Assembly: GCA_021904315.1 (NCBI GenBank)
Contig: CM038925.1
Coordinates: forward strand, 5,954,501-6,018,500
DNA from: Sphagnum magellanicum
Lineage: Eukaryota > Streptophyta > Sphagnopsida > Sphagnales > Sphagnaceae
Reading direction: 5' to 3'
Length of the DNA: 64,000 bases
Shown here piece after piece: positions 6,997 through 64,000 of this stretch (position 1 is the first letter of the stretch; each line of letters opens with the position of its first letter). The notes beneath the pieces were generated by a model that was given only the letters and a program-made list of their open reading frames with translations, did no database searches and was not told the origin of the DNA. Made by a program: the position numbers and the translations under genes.

Positions 6997-9900
6997 CTAT
7001 TTAGGATTCAAGTTGGTTAATTCAATTTCAACATTACTATAATTGTTGGGTATAAGAGATGAAACTAAATAGTTACTTTCACTAGTTGATACATTCACAT
7101 ATATACTTGAAACATCATTCTCACTCGAATTAGTTATAATATTAGGCAAATCCATTTCACCTTGTAACATTCTCAACACTTGTGACATTGTTGGGCGTTT
7201 TGTTGTTTCTACTTGCACGCATAAAAGTGCCACATTAATCACACGTTGCACTTCACTTTCCACAATTGTGTTTTGTATTTTTGGGTCCACCAAGCTTATC
7301 AACATGTTTGTTTTGTGCAAAGACCATGCCTGCAATAGTTTGACAATTCAAGTTTATCAAACAATAATTATTACTTTATATCTTTATAAATTATTACTTG
7401 TAAATTTTAGAGTGAAAAAATATAAACCATAATTGTAAGAAATGTGGAAATGATGTTGCAACTTTTGTGACACTTTTTTAAGAACTCACAAATAGATTGA
7501 TTGTGTACACATGATTAATTTTACCATTGTCACCATTCATTTCCAACATGATTTTATTCCTTTAGAATCTAATATATGTTTTCATCACATGAATGAAAGT
7601 TGATGTTAAAATTGTTCCTAATGTTTTAAAAATATAATAGTTTTGAAAGGCAAGATGATCAAATGTTCTTACCCATTCAACAAGGTACATGTTGTTTGTT
7701 GCATTTTGAAGTATGGCCTTCCTGCCGCTAATAATTTCAAGTAAAAGAACACCGAAGCTATACACATCAACCTTTGTACTGAGTTGACCCAATGTTGCAT
7801 ACTCCGGAGACATATATCCACTATATAATAGAATATCACAATTCATGTAATTTAACATCCAAACCAAAGTGAGAAAAATTAGTCATTTTGTAAATATATT
7901 CATAATTACATTTTAGTAATGTTAAACTCAAATGTTGCAATTATAATAAATTTTGATCTATATGATATTATTTTGATACATGTTATTAATCAAACTTATT
8001 GCACTTACAGTGTTCCGGCAACTTGTGTGAATAATTGACTTTGATTGTCGGAAAATAATCGTGCCAAACCAAAATCAGCAATTTTTGCATTAAAGTTTTT
8101 GTCAAGAAGGATGTTGGATGCTTTGATGTCTCGATGTATAATGCGTGGTTGCAAATCTTCATGGAGGTAAATTAAGCCTCGAGTAATGCCCACAAATATT
8201 TGAAAACGTGTTGGCCAATCTAAGAATATGTTATCCTCCATATTTGAACCTGCAAGCATAAAATATGAAGTCCTCAGTTGACATGATCATGGGTCAATTA
8301 TCATGATACATGTGGATTTAGAATCACATTGAACTATTTTTAACACATTATAGGTAATGAAGGTGAAAAGTTAGTCATATACCCCATAAGGCTTCTGCAA
8401 GATTTTTGTTTTCTACAAATTCATACACAAGAAGACGTTGTGTATGGTGTAAACAACACCCTTTCAACTTCACAAGGTTTTTGTGTCTAGCACCAGTGAT
8501 AGACACAACTTCATTCAAAAAATCATCAATGCCTTGGTGAGATTTTGTCGTCAATAGCTTTACTGCCAATTTTGTCCCATCCAATAAGATTCCCTACAAT
8601 ATACACAAAAAAATGCTATGCATTGTTTATTGGAAATTTGACACAAATCACACCAAAGTAAAAACTTAAATTAAAATTTGAAAATATATGAAAAGATGTA
8701 TGATGATAAAAGGGCATGCAAGATGTTGATAAAATCACCTTGTAAACAACACCAAATCCACCTTCCCCAAGCTTGTTATCTTGATGAAAATCTCCCGTAG
8801 CTCTACTTAGCATGTTATAGGAATATAATGTAGGTTGCACTTGTTGTTTAGCAAATTCTACAAGGAAGTGCAAGGTGTAATATTAACACACATTCACTTT
8901 ACTTTGGATAATTAAATGAATAAGAATGAGATTGATATTACATACTAATACCAAGTTTGAACAAACCTACACAATGTGTCATATATGGCTAATCATTATC
9001 TTAGCTAGTGATAACAATAAAAGCAGAATGACAAGAAATAATCATATAAATGAATGATACAATACAGTAATAGACAAACAAAAACACACCTTGTTGGATT
9101 TCATGCAAAGCTAATGCATTTGCACGATATTTCCGTAATATTACCACACCAATAATTCCACCAAAAACAAAAATAATTGGTAGTGTTGTGGACAATATCA
9201 AATTTAACTTATTTTTGCTTTGAATCCATACTGCCACAAGTGAAAAAAATAATTAATGTGTTAGTTTGGAATGAAAAGCAAAACAACATCAAACAACTAA
9301 CTAATTTCCATTATTCTAACATGCCAACAATATTGACATTTCACAACTAAGAATTTTCTTTTGCATACCCCCACATTAGCATCACAAGACAAAGAAAAGT
9401 TCCTTATTTTCAACATTTGGAACTTTAATGTATTCCAAATGCATCCCCCAAATTACAAAATTTATTTTTTATTTTAGTTTTCAAATTTAATTTTATAATG
9501 TGACATTTTAACCAAAAAATCTTAATGGATTAATTGTACCTATTTAATGTGACATGTTGTAGATTAGGTGCAAGGCTCATATGAAGACCCTAGATTTTCA
9601 ATTTATGAAATTGAACTTCAAACATATAATATAAATATCCTTTTTTTTATCATAAATATCTAAAAGTGATACCTATTTATAATTTCAACAAGTATATGTT
9701 GAAACTATTTTATGTATACAAGTTCCTTTTTCAATTCAAGGGTCTTGTTTAATTAATAGAGTAATGATGAAAATAAATATGGAATACAACCCTTCTATGG
9801 TAATGTAATGGGGATAGGGAATTGTTGTGAATGTAATCCCAACTTGTAGAGGGCTGCCCATTCGGGTTGCAACAACTGCTTTGTTGATTATTGCATGCGA

Positions 9901-12900
9901 TGGGATTTGAGCTACATTGAGGATTCTTGCAAATTGGATTTCCAAAAAGCCTACAATTAAAGTCCAAAATCATCATTAATATATTGGAATAATGATATTG
10001 ATTTTCAATTAAAATAAAAAAAATTCCAATTCCTATCATGTTCTTTCAATAACAATATTGAAGAATCTAAAACTTGAAGCTAAGTTACGATGACAAGATT
10101 GGTTCAAACTTGTGGGCCACAACTAGATATTTAAAAACAATCAATTTAAAACTTACCTGATCCTTATATAGAGCGGAAAATCTTCCCAACTTGGTTCAAG
10201 TGTGGTTATATCATTATACAGCATGGAGAAAAATACTATATAGGAAATATTTGTTTCCAAATCCCAAGAACTCATATTCAAAGTCCCACTTAAGTTGTTA
10301 TAGTCAAAATTTCTGCATTGTAGCAAGTTGTAAGAATATAATGTTAGTTCAAATTGTGCACAATAGTATATAATGGAATTTGATAAATGAAATTAAAATG
10401 TTTGTCCTTCACATCAATCCAAAATAACTTACATGTTGACCTTTTGTTGAATACTATTTTATAATTGAAAAAATGTTTCACATACATATATGGATCTTCC
10501 CATTTCAAATTTTCTTACAGAACTTGAGAAAATGTATCTTGATGTGTACCCACAAGTTTGAGATTGAACAAGCAAGCAAATGTGAAGGAAATGGACCACT
10601 CAAATTGTTGTTACCCAAATTCCTGTAATGAACATTTGTACCCACACTCAAACCTTGTTAAAAAAAAAACCAAGATTGGATGACATTTGCACATGTTGAA
10701 GGATTAAGGTTGAAATATTGAAAACTAATAAATTATTTTCAAAACTTTGCAAATGAAACAAAATTTTAAAAAAGAAGTAAATGAATTTATAATAAACCAC
10801 ATCTGCACCAATTTGATTTAAAAACTTGATGCATCTATTGAAACTTTTCCTTCTCTATGTCATTATATGATGAATTCTAAGATTATAAATCATCACATAA
10901 TTTTGTGTAATTTAACTAGCAATGTCTAAGATTGTGCAAAAGGACGCTTACACCATTGTTAAAGACGTTGGGCATGAGGTGCTTGTAATGGGTACAATGT
11001 TGCCTGAAAGATTGTTGTTCGATAAGTCCAAAACATTAAGTTCGGTTATATCCCAAATGGAAGGTGGGATCGATCCATTGAGTTGATTGTTCCTAATATT
11101 CCTATACAACCCCCAAAAAGAAAAAAACATGTTATTTTATATCTAATAAGTTGTAGATTTATTGATTGATAAGTTTGTGCTCAAAGATTTGAAAAAGTGG
11201 GTTAGTTTTTAAGGATAAACACATTTAATTAGAATCTTACATCTTATTATTAGTTGCACAGCATAAGATGAAAACCCTCATCTTCATTTTTCTGCCTTGT
11301 ATCCTTGTCTCAGAAATTTGAGAAATTTGATGAATAAATCATATGATTATTGCAGGATTTTTGGTATGTATTTCATAGTAAGTAGCTTGATGCTTTACAA
11401 AAAAAACTTCATTACTGATATTATTCGATATTCCTATACATATCAGTGGCAGAAATTTTATAAAAGTAGGGTCATAAAGGTTACATACAAGGTGGTGAGA
11501 TTTGGAGATTGCGAAAAGTTTGGTAGCAAACCATTCAATTCATTGTTCTCCAGTACACTGCACAACACAGAAAAACATACAAGGTGGAAAAATGAATTAA
11601 AATGTAATCATGATCAACGATTAATTTTATATGGACTTGTGAAGATGACCATTACTATTATTACATTGTATCTTAATTTGAACCATAAATTTTACAGCTT
11701 CTTCTAAATATTGCTATTGAAATGGAAGCAAACATTGCATTTGGATTTATAAGAAGAAAATTTTCTACTACATAATAAACAAATGCAATAAATATCATGG
11801 AGAATAATAATTGTGAACATTACTTACAGGCTAGTAAGACTCCTAAGCTTGCCAAAACCAGGAGAAATTGGCCCAGTTAAACCGTACCTTGAGAGATTCC
11901 TATTAAGCACAAAACACAATGGCCCACTTTTGAAGTTAGATTACATAATATACAACCCCTGTTTCATTGAAGAAGCTCATGAAGTCCAATCAACAGGTTC
12001 AAGCTAACTTTATGAACTGTGCCAACGCTCGGAGTATTGTGGATGATGATGACCTCTTTTGGAGTTATACATTTTTGTTTCTCATACACCAACAACACCC
12101 CATGGTTGATCAAGATTAGTTGACAAAATTTTGGCAAGTGATGGATCACGCGAATAATGTTGTTTGAAATATAATACGGGAACAAAATATCTTGTTACAT
12201 CTCATTTACAACATGACAAAATTCAAGCACCCAACACCACCTTGTTTTGGAAATATCTCTTTCCCACATCATAAATACCTGACCTAATTTTTTTTTGTAT
12301 TGGCATATATTCTACATTTAGCATAAGCTTCGTCCTAGCCCTGGAGGCATCTAATTACAAATCCAGAAGATGCCTCCAAGGTGCCAAATTCAACTGCTGT
12401 CAGTGTTTTACATTGAGTAATATATTGTCCTTGGGTTACTTCCTTATAAGTTGCCATGCCCTTAAACAACGTAAACGCCTTTGAACTTCAACTTCCCTAA
12501 CACATAACTACTCATGAATAACATTTGTAAACCCTATTACTTGATATTTCCAATTAACCATGTCACTTAATGTTAACAAAAAAGTCAAAGGAAAACTGAA
12601 GCAGTGAGACAAGAGGACCATAGCATCAGCCATTGTTTGATGATCTTCTACCCTTGCCAAAACACCCACTGGTTGTCCCACTAGAACGTTGTCATCATAG
12701 ATACTAGGTTCCATTCAATTTATAGGAGTGCAAGTGAGGTGAGAAAATCTCCTGTGCCACCCAAATCTAAACAACTGAAGGGAAGGAAGAAAACTTCCAG
12801 TATTTCTAGACAACAAAAGTTGGTGATTTTCAGTTATCGGGGGTTTGGCGAATTACTCACACTGCGATAATTGAAGAACTACTTTGAAGAATGCTGACGT

Positions 12901-15040
12901 TGCTACATGTGACCCATGGATGTGGATATGGAAGACAAGGATCCCCAGTCCATAAGGCAAGGTTTTCATATCTGGACTTTATCTCCTCAATGGCAAGAGC
13001 TGCACACCCCAGGTTAATCGCAGTCACTGACTGTCACACAATCTCAAACAATTCAAGAGCAAAATTGTTATATTTGTACCGTGTAACTTAGTATGCACAT
13101 AGGATATAAACATTTGAGCATCCTATCTTCATTTAGATATTAAGATATAGCCTTTTCCCCCCCCTTTACTGGAGCGGAACATCAATCTGATGTTCCTCGT
13201 ATCATTGGTGGATAGATGGTTGTAGGCAGCAAGGAAGGTAAGTTAGGCCATAAATACTAGCTCATTACTGCTATGATGTGAAAGCTGAAACATGAAACAA
13301 GAAGAATTTTACTAGGACTGGGTTGATCACTTACTGTCCTGCTCGTTTGTCAATGTGACGAATTGGGTTTGGCTACGCTCGAAAATCTCGAGGGCATTCA
13401 CCAGGGGACCCAAAGCAGTGGAAATAGATAGATTTTTAAACAAGCTAACATAGTTTGGCACTCGGCCAGAATAGGATAGATTGAAAATCTCGTCGAGGCC
13501 GCTTGTATTGACGAGTGGATTGACGAACTTGGTCTCATAACCAGGTACCCCCACATAGAATTGCCGTGAAGAGGCACTTGCATTTGGATATAATTCAGAC
13601 CAGTATAGTTTCATGAACCAGATGTAAGTGTGAAGGAATGGGATGTCGATTGTCATGCAGGTACCATTGGTTGTGAGGGCAGTGTCCATTACTGTCTCAG
13701 GGGGAAACACCGCGTTGACTGTATTGGTTGCTGTTAATGCTTCAACTTGAGCAGTACTCTGTACATACGACGAGTCCGACTTTATGGGAAACCAGTAGCG
13801 ATCAGCAATATCATCAGGGTGTCTGCATATACACAGCAACAATAGGAAACAAGGTCAAGCCAACAGAATCAACTTCATTATAAGCGAATTGTGTGGAGAT
13901 TATTTTGTAATCTCCTTGGATCCATGGACGAAATGGTTTATATTGGTCCCTTGGAGAGCTTTCCCTATGTTTTGTTAATTCAACTTTAATTCGGCAGAGA
14001 TTTCCAGTCTTTTCCCTCCATGGAATGCCAAAAAAGTTTCTTGCGCGTTTAATAAGCTGAGTTGAAGGAACTAGTCACAAATTGGTAAAGTAAAATAACA
14101 CGACAACAACGTCCATTTACTTCAATGGAACTCGAATAGAATTTTGGCTAATCACATACCTGATGATTCCATTTCCACCAAAGTTCCACCTGAACTGTGT
14201 CACGTAATAATATCCCTTATAGAGATCGTGAGCAACAACATGAGCTTCTGGTTTACTTTTTACCAAAGATATTGCAGAAATAAACGGAACAGAGTTTGTG
14301 ATATCTCGTGACAGGCAGAGAAAAGTCACGTTTCTCTGAGGCACATAACTGATCTCCTGATACTCTATTACATGTGCTTCCCTGATGAAGTTGGAGGCGA
14401 CTATAGTCCCCTCTATTGCCATCTGAAATTTGGGCACCGTGGCGTGATTGTCATAGTTGCCATAGAAGAAAGTGCCTCTGATCCGGTAGGTCGTGTTCGG
14501 CGTCACTGGAAATCTGTAACAGTTCTTGGCGCGAGAATCAGGAAAGTATCTAAGGGTCGTGAGTTCGGAAAAGCCTGGATAATATTGGGAGGAACTGGAG
14601 ACGTTTGCGTTTACACCAGACTTTTCGTCAATGAACCAATCGTCAGGCATCCATGTTATTCGGGTAACATTATCCACATAACTAGCTGTTGAACCACAGT
14701 TTACGAAGAAAGATCCTGTCAATGCAGAAAAAGTTCGGACTCTTAGGATGGAACCAGCTTGCGCAACGCCACTGCAAGGAGATTACAAAGAAACTCTGGA
14801 CGTAATTCGCTTTAATATTGGACCGCCCCTGTTGACAACTAACCCGTGAAGAAACTAGCTAGGCACGTAAACTAGATCTCGACACTTATTTTACTAGCTG
14901 GTAAATGCTACAAGATTAGCAATAGATTGGTACAAACCTGGTGGATTTTGGGCCAACGCTCCGGGAACGGAGACGTTGCACAACACTCCCAGTACCGCCA
15001 TCAGCAACCATGCGGTCGATACTCCCGTACATTTGTCCAT
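6997..15040 (-). CDS. Malectin-like/LRR receptor-like Ser/Thr kinase, complete
   Basis: Sixteen exons on the minus strand, high to low: 15040-14938, 14715-14160, 13822-13335, 13026-12861, 11899-11828, 11557-11489, 11101-10952, 10622-10554, 10312-10157, 9950-9844, 9230-9090, 8857-8739, 8593-8383, 8249-8009, 7820-7673, 7329-6997. All have GT-AG borders and phases agree, giving 1,042 residues. Order: signal peptide (first 30 residues, ending PGALA), malectin-like domain (exons 2-3), W-x-GDPC motif (exon 4), about five LRRs (exons 5-8), Cys-rich stretch (exon 10), one membrane helix (exon 11), cytoplasmic kinase. Kinase residues are present: GEGGFG loop, Lys in [20 protein letters not shown]. It should sit in the plasma membrane and phosphorylate Ser/Thr after sensing an outside ligand; the ligand is unknown. 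The start is the first ATG, just before the signal peptide. The exon 10 donor (ACAA|GTTGGG) is the least certain border. Confidence 0.93.
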
Positions 15041-17303
15041 GACGTCAGAATAACCGAATGATCTGGTGTTCGTCACTCCACGCTTTGCCTGCCGGCTGCT
15101 GAAGGAAGGAAGAGATCGCTTGCAAAGACGCTAGCTGGACGCGGGGATATGTGAACTCAGCTTTTGTCACTCACCCACAGTTCAGGCCTGCACCTCAATG
15201 ACCCAACATTCTGCAGTCAGGGGTTCATGCTACCAAGTTCCAACTTCGCTTTGAAGACTTATTAACTTGACTACGAAACATAGCGAGGACGTTGGAGCAA
15301 TGCACTTTCAAACCGTCTCGGAAAATCAACTTGTACATAATCTCACAAACAATCTTTTGAAGAGAAGCTTTTGAGCCACTTGACGAGAAGCAAGTTTCAA
15401 ATTGACTTCAAAAGTAGAAGGCCAAAAACCTGGGACGGAACCTTCAGAGGGAAGGGAGCTCAGACAGGCTATTTGTACACTGTTAAAGATCGTTTGGAGG
15501 AAGAACTTTCAAGCTAGTGCTTCCATCCATCAATTTAGAACAACGTCAGGTCATGACGCACAACATGCCAGGCTTAGTTCTAGCCCACGTCTATTAAACG
15601 AGACTCCTGACATTACCTTCTATTTTGTTGTAATCCTCAACTGCCCTTTAAAAACAGAAGCAAGAATACAGATCTCTCTGAAAACGCAAATATCCCCTCC
15701 CGCCGTCACTCTAGCAACATGTTTGTTAATCCTCCCAAAAAGCAACGATAACCCAAAATGAGACCTGTAGAAGCAGCAGTGAGTCGAGGTGGTATTAACT
15801 TGATAATTAGAAGCTTAGAAACCAACAAGAGCTTCTCTACATATATTATCTTTCAGCTCTGACTCTCTGATGGGTCTGAATCGTCTGATCGTCCTGGCAC
15901 CTGCAGCGTACTCTTGCCCAGTTGAATATTTGGTGAGCAAAATAGAAAGATTCAGCAGCGACAGAAACAACCAGGGATTAAAAAGCCGCAAAAAAAAAAG
16001 AAAATGATCCCCAGAGATTGAAGAGTCTGAGAAAGACGACAACCCCACACGCCTCTCCGGACTTTTCAACCACGGTACCAAAGTAAAGACCAGCTTGATT
16101 TTTTTCCTTTGTATTTTCAGGACGCGGAAGTGGCCAAGGTGTTACAGTAATGGGGATCAATTAAATGGCACACAACAAGGCCCAACTTACCTGGCAGAAT
16201 GTGTCAGGCGTCGCCAGTTCTCCAGTACATCACCTCAGTACCTTGGCCAGTTCGACACTAATTATATTATTTTTAGAAATGTTAAAATTTTCAAAAATTA
16301 TTTCTTCCAATTCAAAAAATATTGTGAAAGAAAATAGTGAATATTTCATTTGTTGAAATTAATGTTTCAAAATTATTTAACCATTCAACGAAAAGCCATG
16401 CTACTATATGAACCTCAACCCCCTCCACTTTGTTTTTATTCATCCTTGGTAAAATAATGTTTTAGATTTGTTTCTCGTCTGTCAGGTTTTGACAACAATC
16501 CAACTTGGGTAGGATTTACCCATCCTTACGAGGCCTCGAAGCCAGGACCGCATTTTGGTTAGAATTCTGCATGTGTTGAAATGACCAAGGTACTAGGGTA
16601 TTCTCCCATACCTATTGCAAGAAAAATAGTTCCTAACATCATTATCCTCTACTCTTGCAGGGCATACCTATTAATACCTACTTCAAGTTTGAAATGGTCA
16701 CCCCTCCAAATCAGCCTTCTAGGATCAGTCTTTTTGTTTTCAATTTTGTAATGCAGCCACATTGGCCAGCATCCACAGACACATTTCGCTTTAATTGCCG
16801 ACACTTTTGTAGAGGACCATTAAAACAGTAGCCAGTAGACAGACCTGTGGCGAGACTCTCCTCTGAAAACAAAAAATTTAGTATCTTTTATGAAGAAAGG
16901 GAATTTTGGCCATTTGCTTTTACCTGAGAGCTAGTAGCCCTTTAGCGACTTTTCACCTGAAAAAAAGGCTGTAGGGACCCAATTTTTCAAGGTGCAACTG
17001 CCGACCAATTGTAATGAGACTCATTTGATTTAGAAAAGTGGCTCCTAGCTCTCACGAGGAAAGATGTATTTGTCACTAGCACAGGACTTTTGTTGCCCAA
17101 AACCAAATAGCTGCAACCAGCGGGTCTTTTCGTTTCTACCGCTAGTGCAGCTCTATATCCCTATGCAATCAATGGCAGTGTACTTAGATTTGTATAAGAT
17201 TTAATGGGACAAACAAACCATGATGTATGGAAAGCCGTAGGGCCTCGTTTCTTGCTCTAGGGACAGTAGCTTTCCATTAAAGCTGCAAGAGCGTTGAAAA
17301 ATT
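15041..17303. other. Upstream region of left receptor kinase
   Basis: Contains the kinase gene's promoter and 5' leader, on the minus strand. I see no convincing TATA box close to the start. Several short open stretches exist but none has an ATG-led frame with recognisable features. The mirror lies at 55513-57775. Confidence 0.4.
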
Positions 17304-17490
17304 GTTGCAAGTGTGTTGAAAAACCTTGCAACTGCGTTGAAAACATGTAGTTTAACCCTATCTGCCAAGGCGGACCAATTTGGTCTGGAAACATGTGCAT
17401 TAAGTTGCAAATGCATTGAAAAAACTTGCAATTGTGCTGAAAATAGGTAGCTAACCCCTGACTGTCAAGGTGGACCAATTTGATTTGCTT
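17304..17490 (+). repeat. 100-bp tandem duplication (left arm)
   Basis: Two diverged copies with a period of exactly 100 bases: GTTGCAA at 17304 and 17404, and GGACCAATTTG near 17372 and 17472. Substitutions between copies show the duplication is old. Confidence 0.75.
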
Positions 17491-20169
17491 GTTAGTGTAT
17501 TTCTGAACTCTGGTTAATCACGTTAGGAACTCTGGGAAACATGTGTTCATGCAAAAAAAAGGATAGATGTCACTTGATAATGAGTCACACCTGTACTCCC
17601 AGCTCGTGCAATTGGTCAATGTTTGAACAGAACACCTGCAAGTGCACTGCGAGTGCAGATGTTAGTGCTTGGTACTTCTAGGAGTCCAATGGAAAGCCCG
17701 ATGTGATCAGGACAACCTAATGCAAGGACATATTAGTGCTCGGTAAGGCCATAGTTGTTGATGATGTTACGCTTCCAAAAAACACAAAAATAAATTGATG
17801 AGAGCCCCAATCCTCCTCTAGTGTGCAATTTATTGACCTGTAAAGGCAGATTACCATGAATTGTAGTTTCATGTCACCTTAGTGGACAAACTCTGCTTTG
17901 GAACAAATTATTCAATTTTTTTGGGCCTTATAAGATAAAAAAGCTTCGAGTGCATGTTGAAATAGTGTATAGCTGTAAATCAACTATTGATTAAAATGAA
18001 ACAGTGAACAATAGAGTTTTCCATACAGTCCCACGGTTAGGGGACAAGAAGGCCCAGTTTCATCGCATTAGGGGATGAGATTTTGACAAACAAAAATAAT
18101 AGGGGATGCAATTGGTTTTTTGCACCAAAATTGGGCCAAAAACTAGTTTCGTCACTAACTTTTTTTCTCCGTGTCTAGGGTATTTCGGTCAGTGACCAAA
18201 CACTTAAATGCTCAAAGTAAGCTGGATCCGAGGAGAGGGTTCCATTGTTTTTGGCATCCCAAAAAAACTTGAACCCCTCCTCTTGGCGCATCTAACACAT
18301 TAACAGTCGTTTAAACATATTAGAAATGAGAAAGTTATGGCCCCCCAAAGTAAAGAGGTCAAGGACTTTAATAAACAAACCACTAAACATTATAAAGTCA
18401 GTTCCTAAACACCCAAAAAATTCTTTGTATGTTGCTTTATTGCTATTAGAGTTCAAAGATGATTTGTAGAACTTTAGGTGGTGCTCCTATAGCACTTTAA
18501 ATTGTTTCAAATGAAAGAAACAAAAAAATTATGAGGTTTGAAAGTAGATGGGGTCCAAAAAGAAGAAAAAGGAAAAAAATCACATTTTGTAAGTTGGAAA
18601 GCTTATTTTTCTTCTTGTTATTTTTTCTTTATTCCTTTTCTTATGCACTTCAAAGATGATTTCTAAAACTTGAGGTAGTGTTCCCATAACATTTTAAATC
18701 ACTCAAAATGAAGCACATATGATGAAAATGTAAATAAATGTTTGGTCATAAGCAAGCGATCGATGATGGGCCGGTCTACTTTAGACCCAAGCTCAATTGA
18801 TCTTGCTAAAATTCGACCCCCAATTGTTTTTTCGCCTAGCCCAACTCTCAATTTCACTCACCTAAATTTTTTTTTCAAAAGCAGTCTTCATTCACCTAGA
18901 AGTTCTCTCTCATAAGCATTCTCTCCCTTCTCTCTTTTTCAAAGAAAATAAAACCTATTTTTTTTGGAAAAGACTTTCTTTCTTTCGCACACAGTTTTTT
19001 TACCCCTTTCTTTCAAAGAAAGTGAAGCCCAAATTTTGTGGAAAAGATTCTTTCTTTTTCGCACATAATCTTTTTTCCCTCTTTTTAACAAGTTTTTCTC
19101 TCTTTTAAATGTGGTCTCTCTTTCAGAAGCTCCCTTTCTAGCTTGTGGGTTCGCATTTCTAGAAATATTATTGGTGTAAAAAGAAGTGCCCGATGGTAAA
19201 ATGTGACTTAAACGCGCAACAGTGGAATGATTCAGGAACCCGATTACCTAGAGGAACACGATTACCTGCAAGAGCACCAATGATGGAAAGCAACAACATC
19301 CATTTGTTTTTGGTTGAAAAAGGTTAGCATCTATGAAGTTTGAATGAATTATAACTGAGGATTAGGGTTTAGGGAAATGATGTTAGGGTATAATTCTAAT
19401 GATGATGAATTTATTTGTTTATTGTCAAGGTGAGAACATGGATTTGTGGCAAAACTTCTTCTTGTTGGTGTGGTCAATTGCCACATCTTGTGTGACGGTT
19501 GGACAATTTGTCCAAAACTAGCAGCCACATGATTTGCCCATTCCTTCAAACATCCTACCCCAATTCCTCTTACAAAAATCAATGCCCAACCTACCCAACT
19601 TCCCATGCATAAAAGCCTTAAACCCTTATCCAATTCCAAGGTTCCTTGTTGCGCACTCTCCCAAATGCATTGTTCTTAAGCCACATCTTTACATGTTTTC
19701 CAATGAGACCATCAATGTTATGGCATCTTTACCAAGTGAACAAAGGTTGGTTTAGGGTTTGTTGGTAAGAGTGTGGTGTGGAATGACCTATAAATTGTTA
19801 AAATTGATCATAAATGATACATCAATGCCATTAAAAAATATGGCTTCGAGAGGTGGTTTCTTCAAACTTGATTTGATTTCGAACTCCATTGCTTGAATAT
19901 GTGTTTCTAGGTGTGGAGGAACTACTTCTTGATTGTAATTTGGATAGAAATTTATGTGATGACCATATTTTAGGGTTACATATACCTAGGTAAATTGCAA
20001 ACGTATTCAAATTTGTTCTGGGTTTTGGACATCAAGTTCAACATGTACAATTTTTTTCCCTCCTTACGATGAAGACCGAACTTTCCACTCAAAGGTTTAG
20101 TGCACCTTTTTTTCATTTTGTATCTAGTTGTTCTTTTCATTCCCCTCTTATTATTATTTCCTAATGGCT
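17491..20169. other. Gene-free stretch, left arm
   Basis: No gene recognised. It includes a pyrimidine-rich tract at about 18880-19140 (many TCTC and CTTTCTTT runs). An open stretch at 19349-19639 (minus) begins with TTG and resembles nothing I know. The mirror is 52647-55325. Confidence 0.4.
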
Positions 20170-21610: not shown

Positions 21611-21740
21611 GAGTTAATTAGGACTTAACTAAAATTTAATTAATAATTAACTAGGATTTAATTTGGAGTTAATTAGGACTTAACTAAAATTTAATTAATA
21701 ATTAACTAGGATTTAATTTGGAGTTAATTAGGACTTAATT
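21611..21740 (+). repeat. 55-bp tandem repeat, two units plus partial
   Basis: Two perfect 55-bp units (21611-21665 and 21666-21720), each starting GAGTTAATTAGGACTTAACT, and a 20-bp third start. They lie in a longer AT-rich field (21530-21900) of TTAACTAG-type degenerate repeats. The right arm has three full units, the largest difference found between the core arms. Confidence 0.95.
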
Positions 21741-51020: not shown

Positions 51021-51205
51021 AATTAAGTCCTAATTAACTCCAAATTAAATCCTAGTTAATTATTAATTAAATTTTAGTTAAGTCCTAATTAACTCCAAAT
51101 TAAATCCTAGTTAATTATTAATTAAATTTTAGTTAAGTCCTAATTAACTCCAAATTAAATCCTAGTTAATTATTAATTAAATTTTAGTTAAGTCCTAATT
51201 AACTC
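51021..51205 (-). repeat. 55-bp tandem repeat, three units plus partial
   Basis: Mirror of 21611-21740 with one additional complete unit (51041-51095, 51096-51150 and 51151-51205). The identical units point to recent slippage or unequal exchange. Confidence 0.95.
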
Positions 51206-51625
51206 TAGTTAACTCCTAGTTGACTCCTAGTTAAGTCCCAATTAGCTTTTAGTTAAGTTTTAGTTAATTCATAGTTGATTCTTAGTTAAGAAAGTTCTCA
51301 AGAAGTTTTTTTACTCCATGCACACATAAAAGCCTTCTTGGAAGTTTTTTTGAGCTAGGTCCCCAAAAAGGTGTAAATAAAAGTAAGACCTCTCATTTTT
51401 AAAAATATGTTCAACATTAATCTAAGGCACAATCTTACACCATAGCCTTGTCATGTTTTTTCCATGTTCATGTTTGCATATGTTAACATAATAAAAATTC
51501 GTTTCCATGTTTGTTTTACACATCTTGTGTTTTTGTTTTTGAATCACATAATCTTGTCTTGTTTCGTGTTTGAAAGTTAGACTTAAACCTTTCCTTTAGC
51601 CTTTATTCTTGTGAATCTTCGTGTC

Positions 51626-52646
51626 CTTGACAACTAATCCATCTTAATGAAACATAAGGAGGTTGATTAGATCATAAATAGACTATAAACAAGTAATCCA
51701 TCCTTAATGAAAGATAAGGAGGTTGATTAAACCTAAATTAAACAATAAATAACTTATTATGTCCTTAATGAAACATAAGGAGGCTAATCAAATCTTAATC
51801 AAAGCACAAGGAGGTTAATCCATCTTTAATGAAACATAAGGGGACTAATCAAACCTTAATCAAACCATGAATAGCCTAATATGTCCTTAATGAAACATAA
51901 GGGGGCTAATTAAAAATTAATCAAACCATAAGTAAATTAATCTATCCTTAATGAAACATAAGGAGGATAATCATACTTTAGTTAGACCATAAGGAGGTTA
52001 ATTAAGGCTTCATAGTGGTAATAAAAGGTTAATTAGACCATAAGTAGGCTAATCATACGTTAATAAAAAAGAAGTTAATCATACCAGAATCAAGACCAAC
52101 AAAGTCAATCCAAACTAATAGAAGATTAAATAGACCATTAGAAGGCTAATAAAAAATTATCACGATGCAAACCATAAGCGAGCAAATTAGTAGCAGGTTA
52201 ATCAGACCAAAAAGAGGTGAACAACACCAACGTGGGTTAATAAGAAGTTAATCGGACCATTAGGATGAGTTAATAAAAGGCTATTTAGACCATAAATAAC
52301 TTATTAAGACCATACTCAAACTAAAACCAAACAAATCAAACCATAAGTGACCAAATCAAAAAAAAGTTAATCATATTGTAACGAAGGTGAACAAAACCAA
52401 TGTGGGCTAATAAAAGGCTAAGCAGACCATTAGGAGGCTAATAAGAGGTTATTGAAACTATAAGTAGGCTAAGAATAGGCTATTCAAACCATAAGTGGGT
52501 GAATAAATAAAAGGCTAATTAGATTAGAATGAAGGTGAACAAAGCCAATGTCGGATAATAAAAGGATAAGGACACCATTAGTAGGTTAATAAAAGATTAT
52601 TCAAACCATAATAATGTTAATATGAGGATAATGAAACCTTTTAAGA
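51626..52646 (-). repeat. Degenerate minisatellite (right arm)
   Basis: Mirror of 20170-21190. A 72-codon ATG-led Lys-rich frame begins at its edge (52622-52840, with its copy at 19976-20194) but has no recognised domain. Confidence 0.65.
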
Positions 52647-55325
52647 AGCCATTAGGAAATAATAATAAGAGGGGAATGAAAAGAACAACTAGATACAAAA
52701 TGAAAAAAAGGTGCACTAAACCTTTGAGTGGAAAGTTCGGTCTTCATCGTAAGGAGGGAAAAAAATTGTACATGTTGAACTTGATGTCCAAAACCCAGAA
52801 CAAATTTGAATACGTTTGCAATTTACCTAGGTATATGTAACCCTAAAATATGGTCATCACATAAATTTCTATCCAAATTACAATCAAGAAGTAGTTCCTC
52901 CACACCTAGAAACACATATTCAAGCAATGGAGTTCGAAATCAAATCAAGTTTGAAGAAACCACCTCTCGAAGCCATATTTTTTAATGGCATTGATGTATC
53001 ATTTATGATCAATTTTAACAATTTATAGGTCATTCCACACCACACTCTTACCAACAAACCCTAAACCAACCTTTGTTCACTTGGTAAAGATGCCATAACA
53101 TTGATGGTCTCATTGGAAAACATGTAAAGATGTGGCTTAAGAACAATGCATTTGGGAGAGTGCGCAACAAGGAACCTTGGAATTGGATAAGGGTTTAAGG
53201 CTTTTATGCATGGGAAGTTGGGTAGGTTGGGCATTGATTTTTGTAAGAGGAATTGGGGTAGGATGTTTGAAGGAATGGGCAAATCATGTGGCTGCTAGTT
53301 TTGGACAAATTGTCCAACCGTCACACAAGATGTGGCAATTGACCACACCAACAAGAAGAAGTTTTGCCACAAATCCATGTTCTCACCTTGACAATAAACA
53401 AATAAATTCATCATCATTAGAATTATACCCTAACATCATTTCCCTAAACCCTAATCCTCAGTTATAATTCATTCAAACTTCATAGATGCTAACCTTTTTC
53501 AACCAAAAACAAATGGATGTTGTTGCTTTCCATCATTGGTGCTCTTGCAGGTAATCGTGTTCCTCTAGGTAATCGGGTTCCTGAATCATTCCACTGTTGC
53601 GCGTTTAAGTCACATTTTACCATCGGGCACTTCTTTTTACACCAATAATATTTCTAGAAATGCGAACCCACAAGCTAGAAAGGGAGCTTCTGAAAGAGAG
53701 ACCACATTTAAAAGAGAGAAAAACTTGTTAAAAAGAGGGAAAAAAGATTATGTGCGAAAAAGAAAGAATCTTTTCCACAAAATTTGGGCTTCACTTTCTT
53801 TGAAAGAAAGGGGTAAAAAAACTGTGTGCGAAAGAAAGAAAGTCTTTTCCAAAAAAAATAGGTTTTATTTTCTTTGAAAAAGAGAGAAGGGAGAGAATGC
53901 TTATGAGAGAGAACTTCTAGGTGAATGAAGACTGCTTTTGAAAAAAAAATTTAGGTGAGTGAAATTGAGAGTTGGGCTAGGCGAAAAAACAATTGGGGGT
54001 CGAATTTTAGCAAGATCAATTGAGCTTGGGTCTAAAGTAGACCGGCCCATCATCGATCGCTTGCTTATGACCAAACATTTATTTACATTTTCATCATATG
54101 TGCTTCATTTTGAGTGATTTAAAATGTTATGGGAACACTACCTCAAGTTTTAGAAATCATCTTTGAAGTGCATAAGAAAAGGAATAAAGAAAAAATAACA
54201 AGAAGAAAAATAAGCTTTCCAACTTACAAAATGTGATTTTTTTCCTTTTTCTTCTTTTTGGACCCCATCTACTTTCAAACCTCATAATTTTTTTGTTTCT
54301 TTCATTTGAAACAATTTAAAGTGCTATAGGAGCACCACCTAAAGTTCTACAAATCATCTTTGAACTCTAATAGCAATAAAGCAACATACAAAGAATTTTT
54401 TGGGTGTTTAGGAACTGACTTTATAATGTTTAGTGGTTTGTTTATTAAAGTCCTTGACCTCTTTACTTTGGGGGGCCATAACTTTCTCATTTCTAATATG
54501 TTTAAACGACTGTTAATGTGTTAGATGCGCCAAGAGGAGGGGTTCAAGTTTTTTTGGGATGCCAAAAACAATGGAACCCTCTCCTCGGATCCAGCTTACT
54601 TTGAGCATTTAAGTGTTTGGTCACTGACCGAAATACCCTAGACACGGAGAAAAAAAGTTAGTGACGAAACTAGTTTTTGGCCCAATTTTGGTGCAAAAAA
54701 CCAATTGCATCCCCTATTATTTTTGTTTGTCAAAATCTCATCCCCTAATGCGATGAAACTGGGCCTTCTTGTCCCCTAACCGTGGGACTGTATGGAAAAC
54801 TCTATTGTTCACTGTTTCATTTTAATCAATAGTTGATTTACAGCTATACACTATTTCAACATGCACTCGAAGCTTTTTTATCTTATAAGGCCCAAAAAAA
54901 TTGAATAATTTGTTCCAAAGCAGAGTTTGTCCACTAAGGTGACATGAAACTACAATTCATGGTAATCTGCCTTTACAGGTCAATAAATTGCACACTAGAG
55001 GAGGATTGGGGCTCTCATCAATTTATTTTTGTGTTTTTTGGAAGCGTAACATCATCAACAACTATGGCCTTACCGAGCACTAATATGTCCTTGCATTAGG
55101 TTGTCCTGATCACATCGGGCTTTCCATTGGACTCCTAGAAGTACCAAGCACTAACATCTGCACTCGCAGTGCACTTGCAGGTGTTCTGTTCAAACATTGA
55201 CCAATTGCACGAGCTGGGAGTACAGGTGTGACTCATTATCAAGTGACATCTATCCTTTTTTTTGCATGAACACATGTTTCCCAGAGTTCCTAACGTGATT
55301 AACCAGAGTTCAGAAATACACTAAC

Positions 55326-55512
55326 AAGCAAATCAAATTGGTCCACCTTGACAGTCAGGGGTTAGCTACCTATTTTCAGCACAATTGCAAGTTTTTTCAA
55401 TGCATTTGCAACTTAATGCACATGTTTCCAGACCAAATTGGTCCGCCTTGGCAGATAGGGTTAAACTACATGTTTTCAACGCAGTTGCAAGGTTTTTCAA
55501 CACACTTGCAAC
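55326..55512 (-). repeat. 100-bp tandem duplication (right arm)
   Basis: Mirror of 17304-17490, with the same two diverged units. Confidence 0.75.
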
Positions 55513-57775
55513 AATTTTTCAACGCTCTTGCAGCTTTAATGGAAAGCTACTGTCCCTAGAGCAAGAAACGAGGCCCTACGGCTTTCCATACATCATGGTT
55601 TGTTTGTCCCATTAAATCTTATACAAATCTAAGTACACTGCCATTGATTGCATAGGGATATAGAGCTGCACTAGCGGTAGAAACGAAAAGACCCGCTGGT
55701 TGCAGCTATTTGGTTTTGGGCAACAAAAGTCCTGTGCTAGTGACAAATACATCTTTCCTCGTGAGAGCTAGGAGCCACTTTTCTAAATCAAATGAGTCTC
55801 ATTACAATTGGTCGGCAGTTGCACCTTGAAAAATTGGGTCCCTACAGCCTTTTTTTCAGGTGAAAAGTCGCTAAAGGGCTACTAGCTCTCAGGTAAAAGC
55901 AAATGGCCAAAATTCCCTTTCTTCATAAAAGATACTAAATTTTTTGTTTTCAGAGGAGAGTCTCGCCACAGGTCTGTCTACTGGCTACTGTTTTAATGGT
56001 CCTCTACAAAAGTGTCGGCAATTAAAGCGAAATGTGTCTGTGGATGCTGGCCAATGTGGCTGCATTACAAAATTGAAAACAAAAAGACTGATCCTAGAAG
56101 GCTGATTTGGAGGGGTGACCATTTCAAACTTGAAGTAGGTATTAATAGGTATGCCCTGCAAGAGTAGAGGATAATGATGTTAGGAACTATTTTTCTTGCA
56201 ATAGGTATGGGAGAATACCCTAGTACCTTGGTCATTTCAACACATGCAGAATTCTAACCAAAATGCGGTCCTGGCTTCGAGGCCTCGTAAGGATGGGTAA
56301 ATCCTACCCAAGTTGGATTGTTGTCAAAACCTGACAGACGAGAAACAAATCTAAAACATTATTTTACCAAGGATGAATAAAAACAAAGTGGAGGGGGTTG
56401 AGGTTCATATAGTAGCATGGCTTTTCGTTGAATGGTTAAATAATTTTGAAACATTAATTTCAACAAATGAAATATTCACTATTTTCTTTCACAATATTTT
56501 TTGAATTGGAAGAAATAATTTTTGAAAATTTTAACATTTCTAAAAATAATATAATTAGTGTCGAACTGGCCAAGGTACTGAGGTGATGTACTGGAGAACT
56601 GGCGACGCCTGACACATTCTGCCAGGTAAGTTGGGCCTTGTTGTGTGCCATTTAATTGATCCCCATTACTGTAACACCTTGGCCACTTCCGCGTCCTGAA
56701 AATACAAAGGAAAAAAATCAAGCTGGTCTTTACTTTGGTACCGTGGTTGAAAAGTCCGGAGAGGCGTGTGGGGTTGTCGTCTTTCTCAGACTCTTCAATC
56801 TCTGGGGATCATTTTCTTTTTTTTTTGCGGCTTTTTAATCCCTGGTTGTTTCTGTCGCTGCTGAATCTTTCTATTTTGCTCACCAAATATTCAACTGGGC
56901 AAGAGTACGCTGCAGGTGCCAGGACGATCAGACGATTCAGACCCATCAGAGAGTCAGAGCTGAAAGATAATATATGTAGAGAAGCTCTTGTTGGTTTCTA
57001 AGCTTCTAATTATCAAGTTAATACCACCTCGACTCACTGCTGCTTCTACAGGTCTCATTTTGGGTTATCGTTGCTTTTTGGGAGGATTAACAAACATGTT
57101 GCTAGAGTGACGGCGGGAGGGGATATTTGCGTTTTCAGAGAGATCTGTATTCTTGCTTCTGTTTTTAAAGGGCAGTTGAGGATTACAACAAAATAGAAGG
57201 TAATGTCAGGAGTCTCGTTTAATAGACGTGGGCTAGAACTAAGCCTGGCATGTTGTGCGTCATGACCTGACGTTGTTCTAAATTGATGGATGGAAGCACT
57301 AGCTTGAAAGTTCTTCCTCCAAACGATCTTTAACAGTGTACAAATAGCCTGTCTGAGCTCCCTTCCCTCTGAAGGTTCCGTCCCAGGTTTTTGGCCTTCT
57401 ACTTTTGAAGTCAATTTGAAACTTGCTTCTCGTCAAGTGGCTCAAAAGCTTCTCTTCAAAAGATTGTTTGTGAGATTATGTACAAGTTGATTTTCCGAGA
57501 CGGTTTGAAAGTGCATTGCTCCAACGTCCTCGCTATGTTTCGTAGTCAAGTTAATAAGTCTTCAAAGCGAAGTTGGAACTTGGTAGCATGAACCCCTGAC
57601 TGCAGAATGTTGGGTCATTGAGGTGCAGGCCTGAACTGTGGGTGAGTGACAAAAGCTGAGTTCACATATCCCCGCGTCCAGCTAGCGTCTTTGCAAGCGA
57701 TCTCTTCCTTCCTTCAGCAGCCGGCAGGCAAAGCGTGGAGTGACGAACACCAGATCATTCGGTTATTCTGACGTC

Positions 57776-60700
57776 ATGGACAAATGTACGGGAGTATCGA
57801 CCGCATGGTTGCTGATGGCGGTACTGGGAGTGTTGTGCAACGTCTCCGTTCCCGGAGCGTTGGCCCAAAATCCACCAGGTTTGTACCAATCTATTGCTAA
57901 TCTTGTAGCATTTACCAGCTAGTAAAATAAGTGTCGAGATCTAGTTTACGTGCCTAGCTAGTTTCTTCACGGGTTAGTTGTCAACAGGGGCGGTCCAATA
58001 TTAAAGCGAATTACGTCCAGAGTTTCTTTGTAATCTCCTTGCAGTGGCGTTGCGCAAGCTGGTTCCATCCTAAGAGTCCGAACTTTTTCTGCATTGACAG
58101 GATCTTTCTTCGTAAACTGTGGTTCAACAGCTAGTTATGTGGATAATGTTACCCGAATAACATGGATGCCTGACGATTGGTTCATTGACGAAAAGTCTGG
58201 TGTAAACGCAAACGTCTCCAGTTCCTCCCAATATTATCCAGGCTTTTCCGAACTCACGACCCTTAGATACTTTCCTGATTCTCGCGCCAAGAACTGTTAC
58301 AGATTTCCAGTGACGCCGAACACGACCTACCGGATCAGAGGCACTTTCTTCTATGGCAACTATGACAATCACGCCACGGTGCCCAAATTTCAGATGGCAA
58401 TAGAGGGGACTATAGTCGCCTCCAACTTCATCAGGGAAGCACATGTAATAGAGTATCAGGAGATCAGTTATGTGCCTCAGAGAAACGTGACTTTTCTCTG
58501 CCTGTCACGAGATATCACAAACTCTGTTCCGTTTATTTCTGCAATATCTTTGGTAAAAAGTAAACCAGAAGCTCATGTTGTTGCTCACGATCTCTATAAG
58601 GGATATTATTACGTGACACAGTTCAGGTGGAACTTTGGTGGAAATGGAATCATCAGGTATGTGATTAGCCAAAATTCTATTCGAGTTCCATTGAAGTAAA
58701 TGGACGTTGTTGTCGTGTTATTTTACTTTACCAATTTGTGACTAGTTCCTTCAACTCAGCTTATTAAACGCGCAAGAAACTTTTTTGGCATTCCATGGAG
58801 GGAAAAGACTGGAAATCTCTGCCGAATTAAAGTTGAATTAACAAAACATAGGGAAAGCTCTCCAAGGGACCAATATAAACCATTTCGTCCATGGATCCAA
58901 GGAGATTACAAAATAATCTCCACACAATTCGCTTATAATGAAGTTGATTCTGTTGGCTTGACCTTGTTTCCTATTGTTGCTGTGTATATGCAGACACCCT
59001 GATGATATTGCTGATCGCTACTGGTTTCCCATAAAGTCGGACTCGTCGTATGTACAGAGTACTGCTCAAGTTGAAGCATTAACAGCAACCAATACAGTCA
59101 ACGCGGTGTTTCCCCCTGAGACAGTAATGGACACTGCCCTCACAACCAATGGTACCTGCATGACAATCGACATCCCATTCCTTCACACTTACATCTGGTT
59201 CATGAAACTATACTGGTCTGAATTATATCCAAATGCAAGTGCCTCTTCACGGCAATTCTATGTGGGGGTACCTGGTTATGAGACCAAGTTCGTCAATCCA
59301 CTCGTCAATACAAGCGGCCTCGACGAGATTTTCAATCTATCCTATTCTGGCCGAGTGCCAAACTATGTTAGCTTGTTTAAAAATCTATCTATTTCCACTG
59401 CTTTGGGTCCCCTGGTGAATGCCCTCGAGATTTTCGAGCGTAGCCAAACCCAATTCGTCACATTGACAAACGAGCAGGACAGTAAGTGATCAACCCAGTC
59501 CTAGTAAAATTCTTCTTGTTTCATGTTTCAGCTTTCACATCATAGCAGTAATGAGCTAGTATTTATGGCCTAACTTACCTTCCTTGCTGCCTACAACCAT
59601 CTATCCACCAATGATACGAGGAACATCAGATTGATGTTCCGCTCCAGTAAAGGGGGGGGAAAAGGCTATATCTTAATATCTAAATGAAGATAGGATGCTC
59701 AAATGTTTATATCCTATGTGCATACTAAGTTACACGGTACAAATATAACAATTTTGCTCTTGAATTGTTTGAGATTGTGTGACAGTCAGTGACTGCGATT
59801 AACCTGGGGTGTGCAGCTCTTGCCATTGAGGAGATAAAGTCCAGATATGAAAACCTTGCCTTATGGACTGGGGATCCTTGTCTTCCATATCCACATCCAT
59901 GGGTCACATGTAGCAACGTCAGCATTCTTCAAAGTAGTTCTTCAATTATCGCAGTGTGAGTAATTCGCCAAACCCCCGATAACTGAAAATCACCAACTTT
60001 TGTTGTCTAGAAATACTGGAAGTTTTCTTCCTTCCCTTCAGTTGTTTAGATTTGGGTGGCACAGGAGATTTTCTCACCTCACTTGCACTCCTATAAATTG
60101 AATGGAACCTAGTATCTATGATGACAACGTTCTAGTGGGACAACCAGTGGGTGTTTTGGCAAGGGTAGAAGATCATCAAACAATGGCTGATGCTATGGTC
60201 CTCTTGTCTCACTGCTTCAGTTTTCCTTTGACTTTTTTGTTAACATTAAGTGACATGGTTAATTGGAAATATCAAGTAATAGGGTTTACAAATGTTATTC
60301 ATGAGTAGTTATGTGTTAGGGAAGTTGAAGTTCAAAGGCGTTTACGTTGTTTAAGGGCATGGCAACTTATAAGGAAGTAACCCAAGGACAATATATTACT
60401 CAATGTAAAACACTGACAGCAGTTGAATTTGGCACCTTGGAGGCATCTTCTGGATTTGTAATTAGATGCCTCCAGGGCTAGGACGAAGCTTATGCTAAAT
60501 GTAGAATATATGCCAATACAAAAAAAAATTAGGTCAGGTATTTATGATGTGGGAAAGAGATATTTCCAAAACAAGGTGGTGTTGGGTGCTTGAATTTTGT
60601 CATGTTGTAAATGAGATGTAACAAGATATTTTGTTCCCGTATTATATTTCAAACAACATTATTCGCGTGATCCATCACTTGCCAAAATTTTGTCAACTAA

Positions 60701-63700
60701 TCTTGATCAACCATGGGGTGTTGTTGGTGTATGAGAAACAAAAATGTATAACTCCAAAAGAGGTCATCATCATCCACAATACTCCGAGCGTTGGCACAGT
60801 TCATAAAGTTAGCTTGAACCTGTTGATTGGACTTCATGAGCTTCTTCAATGAAACAGGGGTTGTATATTATGTAATCTAACTTCAAAAGTGGGCCATTGT
60901 GTTTTGTGCTTAATAGGAATCTCTCAAGGTACGGTTTAACTGGGCCAATTTCTCCTGGTTTTGGCAAGCTTAGGAGTCTTACTAGCCTGTAAGTAATGTT
61001 CACAATTATTATTCTCCATGATATTTATTGCATTTGTTTATTATGTAGTAGAAAATTTTCTTCTTATAAATCCAAATGCAATGTTTGCTTCCATTTCAAT
61101 AGCAATATTTAGAAGAAGCTGTAAAATTTATGGTTCAAATTAAGATACAATGTAATAATAGTAATGGTCATCTTCACAAGTCCATATAAAATTAATCGTT
61201 GATCATGATTACATTTTAATTCATTTTTCCACCTTGTATGTTTTTCTGTGTTGTGCAGTGTACTGGAGAACAATGAATTGAATGGTTTGCTACCAAACTT
61301 TTCGCAATCTCCAAATCTCACCACCTTGTATGTAACCTTTATCACCTGACTTTTATAAAATTTGTCCCAGTGCTATGTATAGGAATATCGAATAATATCA
61401 ATAATGAAGTTTTTTTTGTAAAGCATCAAAGCTACATACTATGAAATACATACCAAAAATCCTCAAATAATTATGACTTATTCATCAAATTTATGAAACT
61501 CAATTGAAATTTCTCAAATTTCTGAGACAAGGATACAAGGTGGAAAAATGAAGATGAGGGCTTTCATCTTATGCCAATTGCAAGGTGCAACTAATAATAA
61601 GATGTAAGATTCTAACTAAATATGTTTATCCTTAAAAACTAACCCACTTTTTCAAATCTTTAAGCACAAACTTGTCAATTAATAAATCTACAGCTTATTA
61701 GATATAAAATAACATATTTGTTTCTTTTTGGGGGTTGTATAGGAATCTTAGGAGCAATCAACTCAATGGATCAATCCCACCTTCCATTTGGGATATTCCC
61801 AAACTTAATGTTTTGGATTTATCGAACAACAATCTTTCAGGCAACCTTGTACCCATTACAAGCACCTCATGCCCAACGTCTTTAACAACAGTGTAAGCAT
61901 CCTTTTGCACAATCTTAAAGATTGCTAGTTAAATTACACAAAATTATGTGATGATTTGTAATTTTATAATTCATCATATGGTGACATAGAGAAGGAAAAA
62001 TTTCAATAGATGCATCAAGTTTTAAACTCAAATTGGTGCACATGTGGTTTATTATAAATTCATTTACTTCGTTTTAAAAAAATTATGTCATTTGTAAAGT
62101 TTTGAAAACAATTTATTAGTTTCTGATATTTCAATCTTAATCTTTCAACATGTGCAAATGTCATCCATCTTGGTTTATTTTTGGGGTTTGTGTGTGGGTA
62201 CAAATGTTCATTACAGGAATTTGGGTAACAACAATTTGAGCGGTTCATTTCCTTCTCATTTGTTTGCTTCTTCAATCTCAACCTTACAAGAAATGTGGGT
62301 ACACATCAAGATACATTTTCTCAAGTTTTGTACAGAAAATTTGAAATGGGAAGATCCATATATGTATGTGAAACATTTTTTCAATTATAAAATAGAGTTC
62401 AACAAAAGGTCAACCTGTAAGTTATTTTGGATTGAAGTGAAGGACAAACATTTTAATTTCATTTATCAAATTCCATTATATACTATTGTGCACAATTTGA
62501 ACTAACATTATATTCTTACAACTTGCTACAATGCAGAAATTTTGACTATAACAACTTATGTGGGACTTTGAATATGAGTTTTTGGGATTTGGAAACAAAT
62601 ATTTCCTTTTCCATTGTCTCCATGCTGTATAATGATATAACCACACTTGAACCAAGTTGGGAAGATTCCCCGATCTATCCCGAAATTTTGTAAGTCTTTA
62701 ATTGATTGTTTTTAAATATCCAATTGTGGCCCACAAGTTTGAACTAATCTTGTCATTGTAACTTAGCTTCAAGTTTTAGATTCTTCAATATCGTTATTGA
62801 AAGAACATGATAGGAAGTGGAATTTTTTTATTTTAATTGAAAATCAATATCATTATTCCAATATATTAATGATGATTTTGGACTTTCATTGTAGGCTTTT
62901 TGGAAATCCAATTTGCAAAAATCGATGTAGCTCAAATCGCATCACATGCCTTCGTCAACAATTCAGTTGTTGCAACCCGCAGCTCTGTTCAAGTTGGGAT
63001 TACATTCACAACAATTCCCTATCCCCATTAGATTACCATAGAAGGGTTGTACTCCATATTTATTTTTGTCACTACTCTATTAATTAAACAAAACCCTTGA
63101 ATTGAAAAAGGAACTTGTATACATAAAATAGTTTCAACATATACTTGTTGAAATTATAAATAGGTATCACTTTTAGATATTTACGATAAAAAAAGATATT
63201 TATATTATATGTTTGAAGTTCAATTGAAAATCTAGGGTCTTCATATGAGCCTTGCACCTAATGTACAACATGTCACATTAAATAGGTACAATTAATCCAT
63301 TAAGATTTTTTGGTTAAAATGTCACATTATAAAATTAAATTTGAAAACTAAAATAAAAAATAAATTTTGTAATTTGGGGGATGCATTTGGAATACATTAA
63401 AGTTCCAAATGTTGAAAATAAGGAACTTTTCTTTGTCTTGTGATGCTAATGTGGGGGTATGCAAAAGAAAATTCTTAGTTGTGAAATGTCAATATTGTTA
63501 GCATGTTAGAATAATGGAAACTAGTTAGTTGTTTGATGTTGTTTTGCTTTTCATTCCAAACTAACACATTAATTTATTTTTTCACTTGTGGCAGTATGGA
63601 TTCAAAGCAAAAATAAGTTAAATTTGATACTGTCCACAACACTACCAATTATTTTTGTTTTTGGTGGAATTATTGGTGTGGTAATATTACGGAAATATCG

Positions 63701-64000
63701 TGCAAATGCATTAGCTTTGCATGAAATCCAACAAGGTGTGTTTTTGTTTGTCTATTACTGTATTGTATCATTCATTTATATGATTATTTCTTGTTATTCT
63801 GCTTTTATTGTTATCACTAGCTAAGATAATGATTAGCCATATATGACACATTGTGTAGGTTTGTTCAAACTTGGTATTAGTATGTAATATCAATCTCATT
63901 CTTATTCATTTAATTATCCAAAGTAAAGTGAATGTGTGTTAATATTACACCTTGCACTTCCTTGTAGAATTTGCTAAACAACAAGTGCAACCTACATTAT
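57776..64000 (+). CDS. Second malectin-like/LRR receptor kinase, cut by window end
   Basis: Mirror copy of the minus-strand kinase gene. Exons: 57776-57878, 58101-58656, 58994-59481, 59790-59955, 60917-60988, 61259-61327, 61743-61892, 62217-62294, 62537-62689, 62895-62992, 63595-63735, and 63968 to the window end (start of the kinase domain). Exons 1-6 appear identical to the partner. Exon 7 differs at six of 50 residues. Exons 8, 9 and 10 differ in length by 9, 3 and 9 bases, and the exon 11 membrane segment is the same protein. No stop or frameshift is visible. It has the same role as its partner, but variation in the LRR and Cys-rich region could alter ligand or co-receptor contact. Confidence 0.9.
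60438..60474. repeat. Small inverted repeat in intron 4
   Basis: An 11-bp perfect stem (TGGAGGCATCT with AGATGCCTCCA) around a 15-base loop, within the roughly 960-base intron 4. The same hairpin lies in the partner gene near 12342-12378. Confidence 0.6.

Follow-up and report, generated by a model that had tools for sequence, protein, structure and literature searches.

Most known examples of large palindromes maintained by gene conversion come from sex chromosomes, and the lack of a recombination partner there is invoked to account for them. The closest plant case we found is that of the willow Salix purpurea, whose nuclear palindromes W.P1 and W.P2 comprise four arms on a sex chromosome, with stretches of about 20 kb that are more than 99% alike around a spacer on the kilobase scale (2.6 kb in W.P1); there, conversion is evidenced by sites at which the arms agree although species differ (PMC7023750). 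In human Y palindrome P6 and others of its kind, arm-to-arm conversion in tracts of about 2 kb, counted across 378 non-recombining Y chromosomes, keeps the arms more than 99.9% alike (PMC3723533). Inverted gene pairs of Caenorhabditis elegans are likewise divergently oriented duplicates within almost perfect inverted repeats, a state attributed to gene conversion, although they are much shorter, with arms of 2,207 bp and a spacer of 126 bp at the F44E5.4 locus (PMC1803023). Here we describe a palindrome in the moss Sphagnum magellanicum, in a stretch of 64,000 nucleotides (the window) on chromosome 19, whose two arms carry twin receptor-kinase genes with malectin-like, leucine-rich repeat (LRR) and kinase domains. 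Judged by its sequence, it is a member of the known class of gene-converting palindromes: its core is 99.99% identical between arms, and the arms agree at sites where a related copy differs, as in willow, here read from one genome. What is unusual within the class is its location on a plant autosome and an unconverted block of LRR exons. A 32-kb-arm autosomal case in a haploid plant would let the lack-of-partner explanation be tested, and would offer a way to measure long-tract repair in a moss, within a gene family whose members are likely recognition receptors.

The window corresponds to C19:5954501-6018500 in a genome totalling 438,994,042 bases (best 40 of 704 candidates), and the chromosome is also indicated by the left receptor gene, all 601 residues of CY35_19G033000 (S. 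magellanicum) being identical to its exons 1–9. The name S. divinum belongs to the S. magellanicum complex, and the 439-Mb reference of S. divinum was obtained from a haploid genotype (PMC9946827), so that allelic arms are not expected. The genome paper concludes that chromosome 20 is the sex chromosome (PMC9946827); the palindrome thus lacks the sex-chromosome site that is usual, though not essential, for palindromes of the Y and W type. The remark of an earlier sequence-only reading of this DNA (the first-pass annotation), that palindromes of this size and identity are rare, is reasonable given that the nearest plant counterpart lies on the willow sex chromosome (PMC7023750). The main text of the genome paper contains no word beginning with 'palindrom', and its three uses of 'inverted' all concern CACTA ends or the plastid (PMC9946827). 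A literature search, which could not exclude such a report, found no published account of this structure among the papers listed. A prokaryotic or organellar origin was ruled out by the introns, the plant gene family, the failure of ARAGORN to find any tRNA under the bacterial code and the lack of an Rfam match at gathering scores.

Self-BLAST and a full alignment of the arms confirmed the giant inverted repeat reported in the first-pass annotation, and flanking DNA showed it to be larger than described. Within the window, which contains no N letters, positions 8825-32895 match 64000-39867 in inverted orientation. The arrangement of two arms around a 6,971-bp spacer stands, but 8825 and 64000 are not true ends; 8825 is merely the mirror of the window edge. 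With the adjoining DNA of the same chromosome included, the inverted match extends as far as 6353/66471, where the left arm is interrupted by an insertion of 8,873 bp; beyond it the match resumes and reaches -8212/71903, for a total span of about 80.1 kb. The right arm is thus 32.0 kb long (39867-71903) and the left arm 32.2 kb plus the insertion (-8212 to 32895). The spacer as a whole occurs once in the genome, while parts of it are dispersed repeats. In the genome searches the best 40 candidates were scored, of 704, 59, 4,239, 152 and 2,222 respectively. Feature coordinates are collected in Table 1.

Table 1. Features of the palindrome in window numbering; negative positions and those above 64000 lie in flanking DNA of the same chromosome.
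Feature	Position	Strand	Remarks
CACTA element, in-window part	1..6352		8,873 bp in full, -2520 to 6352; left arm only
Left arm, in-window part	6353..32895	+	remainder at -8212 to -2521, beyond the CACTA insertion
Left malectin-LRR receptor-kinase gene	6997..15040	-	16 exons, 1,033 aa, frame open
Divergent island, left copy	9744..11473	-	7.1%; receptor exons 7-10 and the introns between
Core, left copy	11474..32895	+	3 substitutions, 21,421 sites aligned
Second dead Ty3-type element, left copy	22212..25429	-	mirrored in right arm
Truncated Ty3-type element, left copy	25707..32163	+	long terminal repeat (LTR)-type repeat 25707-28023, then gag- and protease-like frames
Spacer between arms	32896..39866		6,971 bp; dispersed repeats near 32913-33400 and 38249-38859
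Right arm, in-window part	39867..64000	-	ends at 71903
Core, right copy	39867..61342	-	from arm alignment
Truncated Ty3-type element, right copy	40599..47054	-	four stops in common with left copy
Extra 55-bp tandem unit, right arm	51139..51193		largest arm difference within core
Right receptor-kinase gene	57776..64000, on to 65828	+	all splice sites intact; last 24 codons include two stops
Divergent island, right copy	61343..63092	+	from arm alignment

The likeness of the two arms is far from even along their length. Leaving out the CACTA element and, as in all our divergence counts, gap columns, the whole arms differ by 448 substitutions in 31,897 aligned sites (98.6% identity) and by 47 indels. 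Within the window only 133 sites differ, 130 of which fall in 9030-11473. Change-point analysis divided the arms into four classes with sharp edges (left-arm coordinates): an outermost segment from -8212 to 6622 with 4.9% divergence (275/5,658, CACTA element excluded), a segment at 6623-9743 with 1.5% (48/3,108), an island at 9744-11473 with 7.1% (122/1,710), and the core at 11474-32895 with 0.014% (3/21,421; 99.986% identity). Besides its three substitutions, the core differs by one 55-bp tandem-array indel and one 1-bp indel in a T run; the first 10.4 kb next to the island is free of substitutions, and the longest perfect run between the arms is 10,148 bp. The core, which the first-pass annotation also called almost identical, thus exceeds 99% identity around a smaller spacer; the full arms do not, their outer part being far less alike. 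An outer stretch diverging by 0.8% differs significantly from the core (Fisher 1e-7). A single uniform age for the palindrome does not fit these unequal classes, and a uniform recent duplication was ruled out on that ground.

A further receptor copy, C4, lies on the same chromosome about 146 kb beyond the outer end of the right arm (L040, L049; C19:6172001-6189000) and provides an outside comparison. It aligns to the left arm in pieces from -5264 to 21384, with the compared stretch ending at C19:6189000; counts were made on BLAST pieces of at least 300 bp, restricted to the arm. Of 8,948 core sites compared, 660 distinguish the left arm from C4 and none distinguishes it from the right arm. Over the cleanly aligned part, 11474-18142, the corresponding counts are 296 and 0 of 6,535. 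Outside the core both comparisons yield differences, at 139 (C4) and 112 (right arm) of 1,616 sites in the island, 94 and 42 of 2,581 at 6623-9743, and 195 and 137 of 2,405 in the outer arm. The ratios of arm-to-arm to C4 divergence outside the core (0.45–0.81) would, by simple arithmetic, predict some 130–240 arm differences in 11474-18142. The arms are thus alike where a related copy differs, the pattern of concerted evolution, with the comparison copy being a paralog and not another species. This supports the intrachromosomal recombination raised in the first-pass annotation, in the form of arm-to-arm copying. Cruciforms or hairpin transcripts were also proposed there; nothing we saw points to either (the spacer is 7 kb and the genes face outward), and no test of either was made.

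We consider it probable that the locus is a real, long interrupted palindrome, formed by an inverted duplication of some age, and that copying from arm to arm has recently overwritten its inner 21.4 kb. The receptor unit would first have been duplicated in inverted orientation, after which the arms would have drifted apart by about 5–7%. A fold-back origin is plausible from the size of the spacer, since human fold-back inverted duplications also place inverted copies around a single-copy spacer, of 766-70,466 bp; those, however, are new and large rearrangements in patients, whereas the structure here is older (PMC3907307). Later, repair with one arm as template would have rewritten the inner part from receptor intron 6 to the arm/spacer border, either by gene conversion in many overlapping tracts or in one very recent long repair tract. 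The stretch from 6.6 to 9.7 kb would have been rewritten in part at an earlier time, and exons 7–10 would have escaped overwriting. Several points weigh against this history. C4 covers only 11474-21384 of the core and has no bearing on 21.4-32.9 kb, and the evidence comes from one genome, with no second individual. A single tract of 21 kb would greatly exceed the conversion tracts of the human Y, which have a mean of 2,068 bp and a maximum above 9 kb (PMC3723533). Few reads could span the core, given sheared fragments of much the same length (20 kb; PMC9946827), and long-read polishing may have exaggerated the likeness of the arms.

The sharp edge of the core at 11473, in an intron shared by both genes, and the uniform near-zero divergence beyond it would also suit a history in which a single recent event created the inner arms and no older palindrome ever existed. 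In that case, there would have been two inverted receptor genes with unlike upstream DNA; after a break in intron 6 of one, the free end would have invaded the other, and 21.4 kb of upstream DNA would have been copied by break-induced replication up to the present spacer border. In keeping with this, 21900-25700 matches both arms and otherwise, among the matches listed, one 154-bp row at 71% (best 40 of 2,222 candidates). However, C4 contains 6 kb of the upstream DNA at 80–95% identity, which indicates that part of the core was already family sequence, and the 1.5% segment at 6623-9743, beyond the island, points to more than one round of copying, so that this history would need a second event as well. 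We regard this single-event origin as unlikely.

The reference was assembled with MECAT and polished with ARROW from PacBio reads sheared to 20 kb (PMC9946827), and because the core is about as long as these fragments, the value of 0.014% may understate the true difference between the arms. Noisy reads and a core of fragment length also raise the question of an assembly artefact, either a false inverted duplication or a blending of two diverged arms by consensus. A read with a missed adapter, however, would give no 7-kb spacer. Moreover, the arms differ by 7.1% around exons 7–10, where both genes retain their reading frames and splice sites, the CACTA insertion faces an empty site in the other arm, and a 55-bp unit differs inside the core itself. 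The substitution-free first 10.4 kb of the core is within reach of reads anchored in the island, and the presence of this well-separated island beside the core argues that the core identity is real for at least some kilobases. An artefact therefore seems very unlikely to us, although such gene pairs can be misjudged by noisy or short reads.

Both receptor genes read outward, and the core contains the start and the upstream DNA of each. The left protein matches the Pfam families Malectin_like (2.8e-52), Pkinase (6.8e-47), LRR_1 (3.1e-7) and LRR_8 (1.9e-6), and so combines all three domains in one protein. The right gene also has 16 exons, and over the last 365 positions, stops counted, the twins differ at 7. 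As predicted from the gene models, the twin receptors have their upstream DNA, signal peptide and malectin domain in common and their kinases are nearly alike, whereas the LRR and stalk part encoded by exons 7–10 differs. These exons lie wholly within the island, which contains nothing of exon 6 or 11. Comparison with the protein BDL97_19G032000 of S. fallax illustrates the contrast: in exons 1–6 the twins differ at 0 of 475 residues and the left protein from S. fallax at 47 of 451, while in exons 7–9 the counts are 21 of 125 and 30 of 124.

Between the arms, exons 7–10 diverge more than introns 6–9 (49/468 versus 67/1,155 sites, p = 0.0014), and this holds for nonsynonymous sites alone (37/366, p = 0.006 versus introns). 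The nonsynonymous and synonymous rates are dN 0.108 and dS 0.132 (dN/dS 0.82), and the distance of the island from C4 is roughly double that of its flanks. Fast evolution of the island is thus shown; diversifying selection is not. Because the island holds exactly exons 7–10 of the receptor, and because the exons there have diverged more than the introns, it is possible, though we hold it as doubtful, that the locus acts as a receptor-diversifying cassette: arm-to-arm copying would keep the upstream DNA, signal peptide and malectin domain alike, selection or a block to pairing would keep exons 7–10 different, and the two receptors would be expressed alike but recognize different things. The strong form of this proposal is weakened by a dN/dS that does not exceed 1 and by exon 7, which shows no excess over introns 6–7 (10/150 versus 53/709, p = 0.86).

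The clustering of the exon differences, together with the many members of the receptor family (at least 73 match rows in the genome, best 40 of 59 candidates), would also suit a palindrome that is recent and uniform throughout, one arm of which received the island as a patch from a third receptor gene. No donor was found among the matches listed, though; the best after the arms is C4, at 8.5–9.3% from both, which sides with the left arm at 46 and with the right arm at 59 of 114 island sites. The nearby copy C3 sides with the left at 8 and the right at 4 of 12 sites, and the outermost arms differ by 4.9% without any such event. Such a patch is very improbable in our view. In a protein comparison of exons 7–10 with 12 family members chosen from at least 120, four outside proteins agreed with the left arm alone in 10 of 37 columns (gaps included), with the right arm alone in 13, and with neither or both in 14, a split that marks neither arm as ancestral there.

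The palindrome sits within a local cluster of malectin-LRR receptor-kinase genes. C3 is a truncated copy at 72214-80106, to the right of the window (L009, L010), which is oriented as the right-arm gene and resembles it in pieces of 81–94% identity. C4 lacks 9208-9813 of the left arm, and as this gap extends into exon 11, C4 may be damaged. Stretches of about 600 bp at 18176-18790 and 38249-38859 recur on many chromosomes at roughly 80–87% identity (best 40 candidates per search); the former is probably an insertion that postdates the divergence from C4, which is unmatched at 18143-18927.

Further inward, each arm contains two dead Ty3-type elements. As stated in the first-pass annotation, they have the same lesions in both arms wherever we checked: the truncated Ty3-type element is broken in its left copy by stops and one frame change, and its stops at 29168, 30869, 31854 and 32163 have identical mirror partners. 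Its gag match (24.0 bits against a Pfam cut-off of 24.1) and its protease matches are below threshold, and a reverse transcriptase-like stretch at 31857-32162 was read by eye where Pfam gave no reverse transcriptase. A plasmid protein search with the gag frame gave no match, and dozens of further copies of the LTR-type part occur elsewhere, with up to 95% identity (best 40 of 2,222 candidates). In the second Ty3-type element, RNase H and Tf2-type SH3 matches above the Pfam cut-off lie in separate frames.

The CACTA element has inverted ends, CACTACTAAAAATTTTG and CACTACTAGAAATTTGG, that begin with CACTA, which we take to be the mark of this superfamily. It is flanked on both sides by a 3-bp target-site duplication, TGG, and the right arm has the empty site with a single TGG; C4 also lacks the insertion. 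On the plus strand of the window, 1959-4798 holds Argonaute-like pieces, with matches to ArgoL1 (1.1e-17) and PAZ (6.6e-19), a short match to Piwi (4.3e-7) and a weak match to Mid below the cut-off. No full Piwi domain was seen there in a scan of some window open reading frames. These pieces look like a fragment of a host gene carried by the transposon. The element further contains a 96-bp tandem repeat of 3.4 copies at 1046-1375 and a telomere-like AACCCT run of 6.5 copies at 5757-5796.

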